A stretch of DNA of 64,000 nt from Fictibacillus sp. FJAT-27399. Its GTDB lineage: Bacteria > Bacillota > Bacilli > Bacillales > Fictibacillaceae. Positions within the stretch are counted from its first letter, which is position 1. Each line of letters begins with the position of its first letter. The translations under genes and the position numbers were made by a program. Of the stretch, positions 1,682 to 60,908 are shown in pieces. The stretch is from positions 84,814 through 148,813 of the forward strand of contig NZ_LMVC01000006.1 in NCBI RefSeq assembly GCF_001510655.1, in the 5' to 3' direction. The notes below the pieces were generated by a model, which saw only the letters and a list, made by a program, of their open reading frames with translations, was not told where the DNA came from and made no database searches.

Positions 1682-1820
1682 TGTTTGAATACTGATTTTT
1701 GAGTTTACATGCGGGTTTGTATGGTTTACTGTCCACTTTGCTGAGTTTACGTGCCGTTTTTCAGAGTTTACAGTCTGCTTTTTGCGCTTTACGTGCCAGA
1801 TCAAGCATGTTACATGCCAA
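1682..1820 (+). repeat. 21-bp-period intergenic array A1 (GTTTACRTGC units)
   Basis: Six degenerate units start at 1703, 1724, 1745, 1766, 1787 and 1808, exactly 21 bases apart, each led by GTTTAC or a one-base variant and mostly followed by ATGC, GTGC or similar. A weaker unit sits at 1682. The array lies between the convergent Nudix and metQ genes, flanked on both sides by terminators. It is the most diverged of the six arrays in this window. Confidence 0.85.
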
Positions 1821-1853
1821 ACACATCACCCCGCCCCATGCCCCATACCAAAA

Positions 1854-2794: not shown

Positions 2795-2962
2795 AAGCCC
2801 TCAATCTCAAAAGAGACAGAGGGCTTCCGAATAAATCCGTTGACCTCTCATCTCTCAGCTTTCGCTGTTAGATTTAGCACCGTTTCCATACTTGTGATTC
2901 AGCATGAATGGTTGCCGGGCTTCATAGGGCTAATTCCCTCCACCTGCTCTTAATAAGAGTGT
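2795..2962 (-). promoter_or_regulatory. SAM-I (S-box) riboswitch with terminator
   Basis: On the minus strand the leader shows the S-box landmarks in order: an AAGAG-type P1 start, GCAGGTGGAGGGA, the GAAGCCCGGCAACC block, GGTGCTAA and the AGATGAGAG end. A strong terminator hairpin follows (arms AAGCCCTC and GAGGGCTT at about 2795-2826, then TTTT). High SAM should terminate transcription ahead of metQ. The aptamer covers about 2841-2962 and the expression platform about 2795-2840. Confidence 0.95.
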
Positions 2963-5123: not shown

Positions 5124-5870
5124 ATGAAGGATGTAGAAATGCTCCTAGTGGATCATCTAAGCGAGCTTCGAAAACGGCTGATCATTACCTTGGTTACATT
5201 TGCTCTATTTTTCATCGTTTCCTTTATTTATGTTCAGGACATCTATCACTGGCTAATCAGGGATTTGGACGAGAAGCTTGCGGTTCTTGGGCCAAGTGAT
5301 ATTCTGTGGGTGTATTTTATGATATCGGGCATCATCTCCATCGCACTGACGATTCCGGTGGCGGCTCACCAGATCTGGATGTTTGTGAAACCGGCACTCT
5401 CTAAACACGAAGCCAAAACGGCATTGTCCTACATACCGGCTTTATTTCTGCTGTTTATCACCGGTCTTGCCTTTGGCTATTTTGTTGTTTACCCGATGGT
5501 GCTGGATTTCCTGCTCTCGCTTTCAGATGGACAGTTTCAGACCTTCTTTACATCAGAAAAATATTTCAGGTTTATGATGAATCTCACGCTGCCGTTTGGC
5601 TTTTTGTTCGAGATTCCTCTCGTCATCATGTTTCTGACATCTATCGGCCTCGTAAATCCAAAACTTCTATCAAAAGCACGGAGAATCGCTTATTTTGTTT
5701 TAGTACTGATTGCGATTGTTATTACGCCGCCAGATTTCATGTCCGATTTTCTTGTCACAATTCCACTTTTGGTTCTGTATGAGTTCAGCATCACGTTATC
5801 CAAGATTGTTTACCGTAAAAAGCTGGCTAAGCAGGAGGATAATGTTGTGGAGCTGAGGAAGCCTTCGTGA
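5124..5870 (+). CDS. tatC: Sec-independent translocase subunit TatC
   Basis: A 248-residue TatC with the N-terminal HLSELRKRL signature (residues 9-17) and six hydrophobic segments. It is the substrate-recognising subunit that binds the twin-arginine signal. It starts about 60 bases after tatA with an AGAGGTG site. Length is normal for Bacillus TatC. The likely partner and substrate is PhoD encoded next. The stop codon is followed within ten bases by the 21-bp-period array A2 and then a terminator. Confidence 0.96.
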   Translation: MKDVEMLLVDHLSELRKRLIITLVTFALFFIVSFIYVQDIYHWLIRDLDEKLAVLGPSDILWVYFMISGIISIALTIPVAAHQIWMFVKPALSKHEAKTALSYIPALFLLFITGLAFGYFVVYPMVLDFLLSLSDGQFQTFFTSEKYFRFMMNLTLPFGFLFEIPLVIMFLTSIGLVNPKLLSKARRIAYFVLVLIAIVITPPDFMSDFLVTIPLLVLYEFSITLSKIVYRKKLAKQEDNVVELRKPS

Positions 5871-5879
5871 GTTTGAAGG

Positions 5880-5976
5880 AATACGCGCCGATTGGGCTGA
5901 AATACGCGCGAATCTTCTCGTTTTACGATCCAATCTCCCCAAAATACGATCCAATCTCACACAAATACGCGCCAAT
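5880..5976 (+). repeat. 21-bp-period intergenic array A2 (TACGCGCC units)
   Basis: Five units with TACG at 5882, 5903, 5924, 5945 and 5966, exactly 21 bases apart; cores TACGCGCCGAT, TACGCGCGAAT, TACGATCCAAT (twice) and TACGCGCCAAT. Because 21 is a multiple of three it creates a fortuitous open frame with a seven-residue YAPI/YDPI repeat, not treated as a gene. It lies between tatC and its terminator. Confidence 0.92.
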
Positions 5977-6009
5977 CAAAAAAGAGTGCTCCCCTCACTC
6001 TTTTTTAAA
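5977..6009 (+). terminator. intrinsic terminator of tatAC
   Basis: AAAAAAGAGTG and CACTCTTTTTT arms around a C-rich loop. Confidence 0.85.
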
Positions 6010-6193
6010 CTTCCAATTGTTAGGATTTTTTAAAGCGAATGTTAAAATTCACCTGGGCGAAAGTCCTTATCGTTTGTTGAGGGTTGACTGAATTTGCCCC
6101 TTCACGCATTGAAATATGTTGAAAAAAGATACAGGGGATGATAAAAGTCCTGAGAAGAAGGGCCTTCTCCTTTTATTCTCTTAAACTCCGGCC

Positions 6194-10411: not shown

Positions 10412-10642
10412 AAGTCGAAAATTGACCTTCAGGCAGCTCCTTTGACGTGAAAAATCTTCAATGAAAAGTTGATTGGAGTGCAAGGTGCGAGACTCCTGCG
10501 GGACTAGCGTGACAGGTGAGACTCCCGCAGGCGCTTGCGCCAAAAAGTAGGCGTTCACGCCGGTAAGGCTCACCGCACGCCACGCGGAAAGCGAGCAGCC
10601 TGGAGCGGAGATCAACAGCTACCAGACTTCTTGGACAGCCCC
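10399..10642. repeat. GGGGCTGTCC-family dispersed repeat, copy 2 (complete)
   Basis: A 244-bp element bounded by the inverted termini GGGGCTGTCC and GGACAGCCCC. Internal palindromes such as GGCG-TTCA-CGCC are visible. It contains no open frame worth calling. It sits between two convergent genes, supplies the stop codon of the left one and ends three bases from the stop of the right one. It is closely similar to copies at 1-109 and 55507-55772, all in the same orientation. Confidence 0.93.
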
Positions 10643-11511: not shown

Positions 11512-11662
11512 ACTGAAGACCCTCCGTTCCATTTTTTCTCTACTCGTATAGGGTTTTCAATACGGTATAATTTATGCGGGAATCCCTTATTGTCAAGAGC
11601 ATGAAAGTGGAAAAAACAGCAGAATAAATGCTACCTTTGAAGAGGGAACAGGAGGACTGAAC

Positions 11663-15826: not shown

Positions 15827-15974
15827 TTTAAATCCTCCTTTTTTTCGGGAAGTTCAAAATTTCTTTGTATATTAAATATTACCCACATCTTTAAAATTAC
15901 CTTTAAGTAAAGTTTTTAATCTTTGTATTTACATTTTTTTAAGAGAGGAGTATTATTATCTAAGTTTCAAATTC

Positions 15975-16165
15975 TTAAATCGCTTAAACCAATTGGTGCG
16001 GGGGAACCATAATGGGCTTTTTTAAAAAGTCCTGGGGGTGAATCCTTAAGCAGGTAGGGCTACTCAATGGCCCGAATCCGACAGCTAACCTCGTAAGCGT
16101 TAATGAGAAGGAAATGAAGCTTGTGAGACTGGTAAACAAACGTCCGCAGGTCTATTAAAATTGGC
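15975..16165 (+). promoter_or_regulatory. c-di-AMP (ydaO-yuaA) riboswitch
   Basis: The leader contains the conserved blocks of the ydaO-yuaA class in order: ATCGCTTAAACC, GGTGCGGGGGAACC, a variable arm, GGGGGTGAATCC, AGGTAGGGCTACTC, GGCCCGAATCCGACAG and CTAACCTCGTAAGCG. It ends in GGGGGCTTTTTT, which could be part of the expression platform. Binding of c-di-AMP switches off the downstream potassium importer. Confidence 0.95.
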
Positions 16166-23596: not shown

Positions 23597-23715
23597 GTTT
23601 ACCCGCTAAAACAAGTGATTTACCCGCCGAAACGAAGCAAATACCCGCCAAAATAAAAAAATACCCGCGGAAATAGGACGTTTACCCGCCAAAACCTTAT
23701 TATAATAAACTAGCG
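23597..23715 (+). repeat. 21-bp-period intergenic array A3 (TTTACCCGCC units)
   Basis: Five units, with the TACCCG core at 23600, 23621, 23642, 23662 and 23683 (steps 21, 21, 20, 21), each a variant of TTTACCCGCCAAAA plus a variable spacer, followed by ATAATAAACTAGCGG. The same order of spacers recurs in A4 and A5. It lies between the convergent clamp and lsrF genes beside a terminator. Confidence 0.93.
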
Positions 23716-23727
23716 GATAATCAATAC

Positions 23728-23813
23728 AAAAAGCACCGGCGCTCTGAAGTGACCCCGAAAAGTTAGAGTTTTTACTCTAACTTTTGGGGTGCAGTATACT
23801 CCCGGTGCTTTTT
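23728..23813. terminator. terminator of lsrF with an inserted IS-end-like palindrome
   Basis: The outer hairpin arms AAAAAGCACCGG (23728-23739) and CCGGTGCTTTTT (23802-23813) form a bidirectional terminator. Its loop is enlarged by a second hairpin with 17-18-base arms (23752-23769 and 23774-23790), bounded by TG and CA and containing CCCCAAAAGTTAGAG, which looks like back-to-back terminal repeats of an IS3-type element. Confidence 0.8.
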
Positions 23814-55506: not shown

Positions 55507-55772
55507 GGGGCTGTCCAGAAAGTCGAAAATTGACCTTCAGGCAGCCACTTTTTGGCTTGAAAATCTTCAATGAAAAGTTGATTGAAGTGGAAGGTGCGAG
55601 ACTCCTGCGGGACTAGCGTGACAGGTGAGACTCCCGCCGGTGCTTGCACCAAAAAGTAGGCGTTCACGCCGGTAAGGCTCACCGCACGCCCCGCGAAAGT
55701 AGGAGCTTCCGCCGGTAAAGGCGAGCAGCCTGGAACGGAAATCAACAGCTTACAGACTTCTTGGACAGCCCC
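55507..55772. repeat. GGGGCTGTCC-family dispersed repeat, copy 3 (complete, longer)
   Basis: A 266-bp copy with the same termini (GGGGCTGTCC at 55507, GGACAGCCCC ending 55772). It is about 22 bases longer than copy 2 because the segment AAAGTAGG...TTC...CGCCGGTAA is present twice, the second time diverged. Its right end lies 19 bases from the comJ stop. Confidence 0.93.
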
Positions 55773-59880: not shown

Positions 59881-59918
59881 AAAGAGGCACCCGATTAAAA
59901 ATGGAGTGCCTCTTTTTT
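59881..59918 (+). terminator. intrinsic terminator of the catB-like gene
   Basis: AAAGAGGCAC and GTGCCTCTTT arms followed by TTT. Confidence 0.9.
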
Positions 59919-59920
59919 GA

Positions 59921-60003
59921 ATTGGTGCGTATTTGTTGAAGATTGGCGCGTATTCTTGTGAGTTCGGCGCGTAAAGGTGCTTAATCGGCGCGTATTCCAC
60001 TTA
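59921..60003 (-). repeat. 21-bp-period intergenic array A6 (TACGCGCC units, minus strand)
   Basis: Four units with GCGTA at 59927, 59948, 59969 and 59990, exactly 21 bases apart. The reverse complement core is TACGCGCC(A/G)A, identical to array A2. It lies between convergent catB-like and EamA genes directly after a terminator. Confidence 0.93.
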
Positions 60004-60005
60004 AC

Positions 60006-60908
60006 TCAAGAAGATTTCTTCAGTTTCACTCCTGCTTTGTTTGTTCTGGGTTTTTTCGATGAGAGATAAACCCCGGCAAAGATGATGAGGAGGCCGATAA
60101 CCAAGTTGGGGGTAACAGGCTCTCTCAAAAGGACATATCCCCAAATCATGGCGCTGGCGGGGATCAGATAGGTGACTGTAGCTGCGAACTCTGGGCTTCC
60201 GTTTTTATTCAAGTAAAAATAGATAAGCTGGCCCAGACCCGAACCAAAACAACCGAGGCCGATCAAGGCAAACAACGGCTTAGGATGAAGAAGTTGCTGG
60301 AAATGAACAGGCTCGGTAAAAAGTACGCCGATTAGGCCGACGGCTGCACCAGTCAGTAAGGTGAAAAATGTAATGACGGCAACGCCCACTCCTGACAAAT
60401 ACCTTTTGGTGAGCTGTCCAGAAAGGCCGTAACAGACGGCGGCAAGAAGCATTGTGCCGATTCCTACGAACTGAGTTCCAAACAAATGGCCGAATTGAAA
60501 GTCCATAAGAACCAGTATGCCGAAAAATCCAATGAGAATTCCGATCCACTGCTGCTTGTTTAACCTGTAGGAAAACAAAAAGAAACCAATTAAACCGGTC
60601 CAGATCGGTGTCGTCGCATTTAGGATGGAAGCCGTATTGGACTGGATGACTGTCTCACTTAATGAGATCAGTCCCCAAGCTAAACCGCAGTTGAAAATTC
60701 CGGTAATGATCAGCCATTTAATGGGAAGCTTGTTTTTTATCTCTTTTCTCTTGCTCCAAATAACTGGTAAAAGAATAAGTGCTCCAGCCAGTGTCCGTAA
60801 AAATACGACTCCCCATACGCCAGCAGGCTCAAGCAGCCATTTCATAAACACGAAAGATAGTCCCCAAATAAGGCTTAAGCCCGCAAGTGCAGCATATAAA
60901 CGAATCAT
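60006..60908 (-). CDS. EamA/DMT family transporter
   Basis: A 300-residue protein with ten hydrophobic segments in two EamA repeats (first GLSLIWGLSFVFMKWLL; second AAVCYGLSGQLTKRYL and YLIPASAMIWGYVLLREPVTP). These are drug/metabolite exporters. The substrate is unknown. AAGGAAA precedes the ATG. It is monocistronic and convergent with the CatB-like gene. Confidence 0.92.
   Translation of the reverse strand: MIRLYAALAGLSLIWGLSFVFMKWLLEPAGVWGVVFLRTLAGALILLPVIWSKRKEIKNKLPIKWLIITGIFNCGLAWGLISLSETVIQSNTASILNATTPIWTGLIGFFLFSYRLNKQQWIGILIGFFGILVLMDFQFGHLFGTQFVGIGTMLLAAVCYGLSGQLTKRYLSGVGVAVITFFTLLTGAAVGLIGVLFTEPVHFQQLLHPKPLFALIGLGCFGSGLGQLIYFYLNKNGSPEFAATVTYLIPASAMIWGYVLLREPVTPNLVIGLLIIFAGVYLSSKKPRTNKAGVKLKKSS

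Follow-up and report, generated by a model that had tools for sequence, protein, structure and literature searches.

Helically phased direct-repeat arrays behind genes in Fictibacillus: candidate DNA sites for a putative protein

The arrays of 21-base direct repeats behind tatC and behind an EamA-type transporter gene of Fictibacillus sp. FJAT-27399 were found to belong to a dispersed family of head-to-tail arrays at gene ends. On balance, these arrays are probably helically phased sites on double-stranded DNA for a putative, probably dimeric protein, which would form a nucleoprotein patch at the ends of transcription units. Action at the level of the DNA is well supported; the binding protein, its dimeric and cooperative mode of binding and its role are what we infer. 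Throughout, the window denotes the whole stretch of 64,000 nucleotides that was analysed, the source genome is the genome from which it comes, and the sister genome (G023) is a Fictibacillus genome with a complete chromosome, collinear with the source genome and about 92–98% identical to it in aligned blocks.

Arrays A2 and A6 and the family around them

The two arrays, their surroundings and the related arrays of the window are located as follows.

1703 to 1826, plus strand: related array of class F3b, six units at steps of 21 bases (TACATGC, TACTGTCC, TACGTGCC); six units in the sister genome too
5124 to 5870, plus strand: tatC, an open reading frame matching Pfam TatC PF00902 (E 2.6e-61)
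5867 to 6091, plus strand: YAPI-type open frame spanning A2, regarded as spurious; it crosses the terminator and is without a Pfam match
5879 to 5978, plus strand: array A2 (class F2), five units at steps of 21, 21, 21 and 21, directly 3' of the tatC stop codon and 5' of the tatC terminator
5978 to 6006, plus strand: intrinsic terminator 3' of A2, a hairpin and T run seen in the sequence, the hairpin also in the fold of the stretch containing the terminator
23597 to 23715, plus strand: related array of class F1, five units at steps of 21, 21, 20 and 21, end motif TTATAATAAACTAGCG; five units in the sister genome
32351 to 32468, plus strand: related array of class F1, five units at steps of 20, 21, 20 and 21, end motif TTATGGTAAACCAGCG; two units in the sister genome
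38882 to 39000, plus strand: related array of class F1, five units at steps of 21, 21, 20 and 21, end motif TTATAGTAAACTACG, between two terminators; five units in the sister genome
59851 to 60000, minus strand: YAPI-type open frame spanning A6, regarded as spurious; it crosses the terminator and is without a Pfam match
59881 to 59918, both directions: intrinsic terminator of a hexapeptide-transferase gene (plus) and of the EamA gene with A6 (minus), seen in the sequence, with its hairpin in the fold
59919 to 59997, minus strand: array A6 (class F2), four units at steps of 21, 21 and 21, placed 8 bp after the EamA stop codon (minus strand) and 5' of the terminator
60006 to 60908, minus strand: EamA-type transporter gene whose 3' end bears A6, an open reading frame matching Pfam EamA PF00892 (E 3.3e-46)
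11520 to 11635 of locus L044 (elsewhere in the source genome), minus strand: duplicated F2 array of the tatC tail, 152 bases 3' of a TauE-type gene

The positions of TAC were read directly from the sequence. For A2 (plus strand) they are 5882, 5903, 5924, 5945 and 5966, giving four exact 21-base steps, and for A6 (minus strand) 59994, 59973, 59952 and 59931, giving three. The exact step across five and four units described in the earlier note was thus borne out. The core quoted there, TACGCGCC, proved exact in part of the units only: it is intact in two of the five A2 units, the remaining three being TACGCGCG, TACGATCC and TACGATCC, and in three of the four A6 units, the remaining one being TACGCACC. 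The neighbours of the two arrays, as identified by Pfam and open reading frames, are tatC, the EamA gene and the hexapeptide-transferase gene. The first base of A2 lies about 9 bases past the tatC stop, and the end of the array meets the tatC terminator. A6, read in its own orientation, starts 8 bp past the EamA stop and is followed by the hexapeptide-transferase terminator in reverse. The spacing from tatC and from the terminators was about as previously given; the EamA stop ahead of A6 had been overlooked, and its position means that A2 and A6 share the layout of stop codon, array and terminator.

The tail of tatC (from 5814), the array and the terminator, together about 190 bp, are duplicated 3' of the TauE-type gene at L044, with 148 of 196 aligned positions in agreement. 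Judged from this copy, segments of gene tail, array and terminator can apparently travel as one unit.

A chain scan, combining a unit matrix with a chain of 18–23 base steps, was applied to the intergenic DNA of the source genome. It returned 16 arrays of at least three units, six of them in the window, from 366 intergenic stretches (101 kb) of a 580-kb sample. This sample joined the window to 20 stretches of a single contig and six further stretches, and part of it had been picked at known matches. The same scan of the same 366 gaps returned no array after reversal and none after shuffling, so the phased arrays exceed chance expectation. Autocorrelation of the intergenic DNA gave a signal that was too diluted. 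A pattern search of the whole source genome for TACSCGCC cores at steps of 19–22 bases found 15 pairs, and the reversed pattern gave 0.

A sequence-only model was then built from 15 F1 arrays. With the cut-off for per-genome counts set at E 0.1, it matched 62 places in the source genome and 60 in the sister genome. The chain scan of 86 stretches of the sister genome (1.72 Mb) found 61 arrays of at least three units, a number that gives no density since most of these stretches had been picked at model matches; the reversed control yielded none in the last round and two in the first. Both methods agreed on 55 of the 60 model matches. The five that the re-trained scan missed included two two-unit arrays and the A6 orthologue, and it added six arrays absent from the model matches, two of which are doubtful members of class F5. 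A prior-free histogram of steps was compiled from the same 1.72 Mb, which is mostly stretches picked at matches, and there 452 of the 466 same-strand core pairs closer than 90 bp lay at 20/21, 41/42, 62/63 or 83/84 bases. The reversed control held 17 pairs in total, with at most one per distance. Core pairs on opposite strands showed no excess in the 1.72 Mb (10, versus 18 reversed).

The suggestion that the arrays vary around a single recognition-like sequence was supported, as was their position beside terminators. The division into two subfamilies was not, as at least five related classes were distinguished in Fictibacillus. The site common to all classes spans about 13 bp, approximately TTTACNN[GT]C[CG]RAA, and recurs at 20/21-bp steps. 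The details that follow are those of the sister genome. Class F1 has the cores TACCCGCC, TACTGTCC, TACTGGCC, TACAAGCC and others, usual steps of 21, 21, 20 and 21, an end motif near TTATGGTAAACT, and five units in 22 of 28 arrays. Class F3 (core TACTTGCG) has six units in 15 of 18 arrays and ends near CATTTTCATAAAAA, and class F3b (core TACRTGC) has six units in seven of eight. Both arrays of class F4, which is of the TACTGGCGC type, have six units. Four units are present in all three arrays of F2, the class of A2 and A6, one of them with a doubtful first unit. Class F5 comprises two weak, doubtful arrays.

Information per position was high within the site and fell almost to zero across the spacer, both for F1 (130 units) and for F3 (79 units, the four rRNA-linked F3 arrays being excluded). 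The starts of TTT and AAA cluster at unit offsets 1 and 11–12, and A/T tracts recur about every 10–11 bp. A 20-unit array in a genome of another family (G134) has two unit types and 20/21 steps, both mostly alternating; with such steps the helical phase is kept and the reading frame is broken.

Placement, distribution and inheritance

Gene boundaries in the sister genome were taken from a simple open-frame caller. Convergent gene pairs flank 24 of 60 arrays; among background gaps (120 bases or longer) the count is 104 of 668. The 3' end of the array faces the 3' end of a gene in 42 of 61 cases, 28 of these at a distance of 36–81 bp. Between co-directional genes, 18 arrays are antisense and 10 sense. 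Several arrays sit past the terminator of the upstream gene or between two terminators. Near-identical F3 and F3b arrays were present, in antisense, 3' of the 5S genes in all four rRNA operons read in this genome (L228, L229, L230 and L231). The strands of the arrays are mixed on both replication arms.

The dnaA gene of the sister genome starts at base 22. Its dif site is at 2,270,425, where 26 of 28 bases match the dif query. All 60 model matches lie at 0.02–1.57 or 2.90–4.33 Mb, the nearest 0.63 Mb from dif, and a gap as large was produced by 0 of 200,000 uniform draws when five rRNA-linked matches were left out. No array was found by the chain scan in 20 evenly spread 20-kb stretches between 1.60 and 2.79 Mb. 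Likewise, a core-independent scan for 20/21 periodicity found none at 47/84 in 420 kb near dif, compared with 53 in 1300 kb of the arms that had been selected for arrays. The earlier note had envisaged that its two subfamilies might mark different genome regions or replichores. The answer differs, in that all classes alike keep clear of 1.33 Mb around dif in this complete chromosome. Class F3 (TACTTGCG) does lie closer to the origin than F1 (the CCGCC/TGTCC class; Mann–Whitney p = 0.0008, a value inflated by rRNA-operon copies), and F2 (the GCGCC class), with three arrays in the scan and the A6 orthologue missed, is too small for a regional assignment. Another dispersed repeat of the sister genome is also thinner near dif, with 3 copies in 420 kb versus 29 in 1300 kb. 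For the draft source genome, exclusion from the dif region follows by orthology with the sister genome only. The arrays of G134 lie at 1.57–2.05 Mb, near its GC-skew flip at 2.2–2.4 Mb. The exclusion was seen in one lineage only and is not general.

Model matches at E 1e-4 numbered 22, 31, 7 and 14 in four further Fictibacillus genomes, and there was none at this cut-off in another member of the genus (G022). Six genomes outside the genus had 1, 2, 2, 16, 11 and 7. Pairs of TACSCGCC were present in 4 of 34 family members, all of them Fictibacillus; the reversed pattern occurred four times, in two other genomes without a true match. In the order, a one-mismatch pattern with a fixed 21-base step was found in 16 of 299 genomes and 9 of 116 genera, and its reverse in one genome, where it matched twice. 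The exact pattern with other limits was found in 8 of 397 genomes, and its reverse in none. Given that 283 of the 299 genomes are without the strict pattern and G022 is without a match, the array system is dispensable. Among the matches listed (the best 80 of 117 stretches, mostly from G+C-rich genomes, with 12 Bacillales loci inspected), arrays of at least three units were seen in Peribacillus, Neobacillus, Siminovitchia and Alteribacillus. Long, locally repeated TTTACTCGCCAATT arrays were observed in Peribacillus sp. SI8-4 among the matches listed (L062, L081 and L093), with more than 20 units in L093. Two long arrays of relatives had no match to plasmids. Searches of the open-licence literature, including searches with unit sequences, found no published description of the arrays.

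At the places of all six window arrays, an array is also present in the sister genome, and this count is unbiased as to presence. Compared with the window, A2 and A6 have one unit fewer there, one F1 array has two units instead of five, and three arrays are unchanged. Among orthologous pairs from the two genomes, the array was at the same place in 21 of 21, a figure biased by the counting of arrays with matching flanks only and by the picking of most sister-genome stretches at matches. Whole units were gained or lost in six of the 21 pairs, which differ by 21, 22 or 63 bases. Substitutions between the two genomes were counted as 80/1171 for sites, 69/677 for spacers and 336/5125 for flanks. 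The flanks thus change as slowly as the sites, which indicates that constraint within the species is weak.

Twenty-two loci from other Fictibacillus species were compared with the sister genome. Ten of them map to six places that bear an array there; the rest were without usable flanks or ambiguous, save locus 338225, whose counterpart in the sister genome has no array, a presence/absence difference. Five units and their direction are kept in five genomes at locus 114733 and in two genomes at locus 558603, with spacers and central core letters differing at both. Locus L182 belongs to the neighbouring place 562602 and not to 558603. The same number and direction are kept in two genomes at locus 3304042, where the spacers differ and the core letters are similar. 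At locus 3151459, six F3 units in one species correspond to five units of a different core in another. At locus 626631, the arrays of two species differ in class and point in opposite directions. The array behind EamA has four units in the source genome, three in the sister genome and three in G025; the re-trained matrix did not re-find the A6 orthologues in the cross-species comparison. At comparable loci, place and direction are mostly kept, and unit number often, while the spacers and often two central core letters change. The layout of the arrays persists between species, and arrays are also replaced, gained and lost.

Competing explanations and the proposed nucleoprotein patch

The frames over A2 and A6 were considered as protein-coding repeats of YAPI-type heptads. 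The steps of F2 arrays are multiples of three, except for a 20-base step to the doubtful first unit at 626631, and GTG codons lie closely 5' of the frame in A2, A6 and the copied array. These features would suit translation; however, the frames over A2 and A6 run across intrinsic terminators before any stop is reached, which makes a protein unlikely. The YAPI frame also has a stop inside the array segment in three of seven F2 arrays, in one of them before the last unit (the other forward frames likewise have stops in three of seven each), and two of the seven are without an upstream in-frame start codon. For three YAPI frames Pfam gave no match, arrays gain and lose entire units, and the same wobble (R after CC, [GT]CC) is present in classes whose 20-bp steps break the frame. 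The earlier note had taken the frames to be spurious, and its view was strengthened by the crossed terminators, the in-frame stops and missing starts, the lack of a Pfam family and the 20-bp steps of the sister classes. Coding repeats were rejected on these grounds and are scarcely credible. The arrays may account for one kind of spurious repeat protein in Bacillales annotation.

An element acting in the 3' untranslated region, with UACGCGCC repeats in the tatC and EamA mRNAs binding a protein or aiding termination or stability, was judged unlikely. It would be consistent with A2, A6 and the copied tatC-tail array, all of which lie in sense, preceded by a stop codon or gene tail and followed by a terminator. 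The arrays alone, however, folded no better than shuffled sequences (z 1.22, 1.13 and 0.03), no consensus structure was obtained across 15 F1 arrays, and no Rfam match fell on the arrays, the only above-threshold matches in the window being two riboswitches. RNA structure at the arrays was rejected on these three results. Moreover, the alternation of 20 and 21 steps suits a helix rather than a flexible strand. Many arrays are not part of the upstream transcript or run antisense to the neighbouring genes (18 antisense and 10 sense in co-directional settings), and for this reason an RNA element was rejected as a general explanation. A2 and A6 themselves do lie in transcripts, and for these two an RNA role is conceivable.

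A passive or selfish dispersed tandem repeat, spread by segment copying and unequal exchange and tolerated behind terminators without a host function, was considered possible but rather improbable. The copying of tatC tail, array and terminator behind the TauE-type gene (148/196 positions) points in this direction, as do the whole-unit differences of 21, 22 or 63 bases in 6 of 21 orthologous pairs, the patchy taxonomic distribution, the presence/absence difference at 338225 and the rarity of another dispersed repeat near dif. Against it, unit number, phase and direction persist where the spacers have lost similarity between species, information is concentrated in the site, and sites change less than spacers (80/1171 versus 69/677).

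In another explanation, the arrays are nucleoid-occlusion sites. If they replaced classical Noc-binding sites, they would be bound by Noc, and a noc gene is present beside parB. The palindrome ATTTCCCGGGAAAT, which we take to be the consensus of the classical sites, had no exact and two one-mismatch matches in 1.72 Mb of the sister genome. With two mismatches there were 14 matches, compared with a mean of 5.9 (maximum 18) for 40 shuffled palindromes, so weaker classical Noc sites may be present. The roughly 60 loci of the sister genome resemble the Noc sites of Bacillus subtilis, about 70 in number, and the SlmA sites of Escherichia coli, described as some 60–70 scattered sites absent from the terminus (PMC4331003). 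Noc sites are described as discrete palindromes (PMC4331003), whereas the array units are not palindromic, do not match ATTTCCCGGGAAAT and vary freely in their central letters. Furthermore, the arrays of G134, which show no terminus exclusion, occur on the terminus side, and other Bacillales have no such arrays. This explanation is considered very unlikely. A relation to the Xer system or a mobile element, in which the arrays would be remnants or accessory sites of recombination, appears still harder to credit. Of 28 F1 end motifs, 5 match the XerD arm of this genome's dif with at most one mismatch and 11 with at most two; one mismatch or fewer was seen in 2 of 20,000 random 24-base windows. 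However, 23 of the 28 are beyond one mismatch and most have one extra central base, the other classes end differently, the arrays avoid the dif region, and no associated gene was seen. The resemblance of the F1 end motif to the XerD arm, a likeness of sequence, is a lead only.

The preferred reading is that of phased sites on double-stranded DNA. Each unit holds one site, approximately TTTAC-NN[GT]-C[CG]RAA and some 13 bp long, and the units follow head to tail every 20–21 bp. As this step corresponds to two helical turns, all sites lie on one face of the helix. A putative dimeric DNA-binding protein most probably occupies neighbouring sites, usually five or six, in a cooperative manner and bends or wraps the DNA, giving a compact or wrapped nucleoprotein patch where transcription units end. 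Such a patch could mark or organise the chromosome and separate adjacent transcription units, as suggested for enterobacterial BIMEs. A2 (tatC) and A6 (EamA) are members of class F2 whose position within a 3' untranslated region is taken to be incidental. An organising or insulating role at the ends of transcription units would be the most economical reading. The geometry of an Lrp/AsnC-type octamer would fit the arrays, which is a lead only.

Several known systems can be compared. Iterons of plasmid origins comprise four to seven direct repeats, set about two turns of the helix apart and bound by an initiator on one face. The arrays are likewise direct repeats spaced about two helical turns, but they occupy about 60 dispersed chromosomal loci behind genes with no linked initiator gene seen, whereas iterons belong to one origin. 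BIMEs bind gyrase, IHF and DNA polymerase I and have a suggested role in chromosome organisation and termination (PMC2817692). Like BIME/REP elements, which are many small interspersed extragenic elements with regular spacing (PMC2817692), the arrays exist in many intergenic copies at gene ends (62 and 60 per genome, with 24/60 convergent versus 104/668 gaps). Unlike REP sequences, which are palindromes in alternating orientation, they have non-palindromic units, which are helically phased and always in head-to-tail order. The TAACTGA direct repeats of Beggiatoaceae form 169 intergenic sets in one genome and are patchy in their taxonomy (PMC4679880). They are similar to the arrays as many small intergenic direct-repeat sets of patchy distribution; they differ in being seven bases long, mostly just 5' of start codons and proposed to act post-transcriptionally (PMC4679880), the arrays being phased at 21 bp and behind genes.

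If the arrays do bind a protein, about 60 addressed and precisely phased sites would be available per Fictibacillus genome, and more in some relatives, providing a new route to Gram-positive chromosome folding, gene-end insulation and clearance of the dif region. With a conserved layout and changing core letters, the partner protein could be searched for by matching the change in specificity. A broader proposal is put forward tentatively, as a possibility that we would not yet count on. It postulates a hitherto undescribed chromosome-marking system of Bacillales, in which a candidate protein would assemble helically phased patches of five or six sites downstream of genes, at about 60 lasting addresses that in Fictibacillus are excluded from the 1.3-Mb dif region. 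The central core letters of individual arrays would change from one species to the next, with place, direction and usually unit number left as they are. Were this true, the changing specificity of the protein or protein set would be readable from the DNA.

Other features seen alongside the arrays

The other dispersed repeat is about 185–200 bp long and forms a family separate from the arrays. It was noted at L044 (5896–6095), and 32 places were counted across the 1.72 Mb read from the sister genome, with weaker matches in the window at 10450–10541 and 55676–55703. The draft contig of the source genome, near 1.25–1.37 Mb, jumps from the 2.4 Mb region of the sister genome to its 1.1 Mb region, which may reflect a rearrangement or a misjoin. 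The Rfam matches of the window were a c-di-AMP riboswitch at 15971–16114 (plus strand) and a SAM riboswitch at 2845–2959 (minus strand). The terminator behind the array at 23597–23715 contains an insert of about 57 bases with an inverted repeat (window positions about 23742–23796), which is absent from the sister genome and looks like a small mobile hairpin element.
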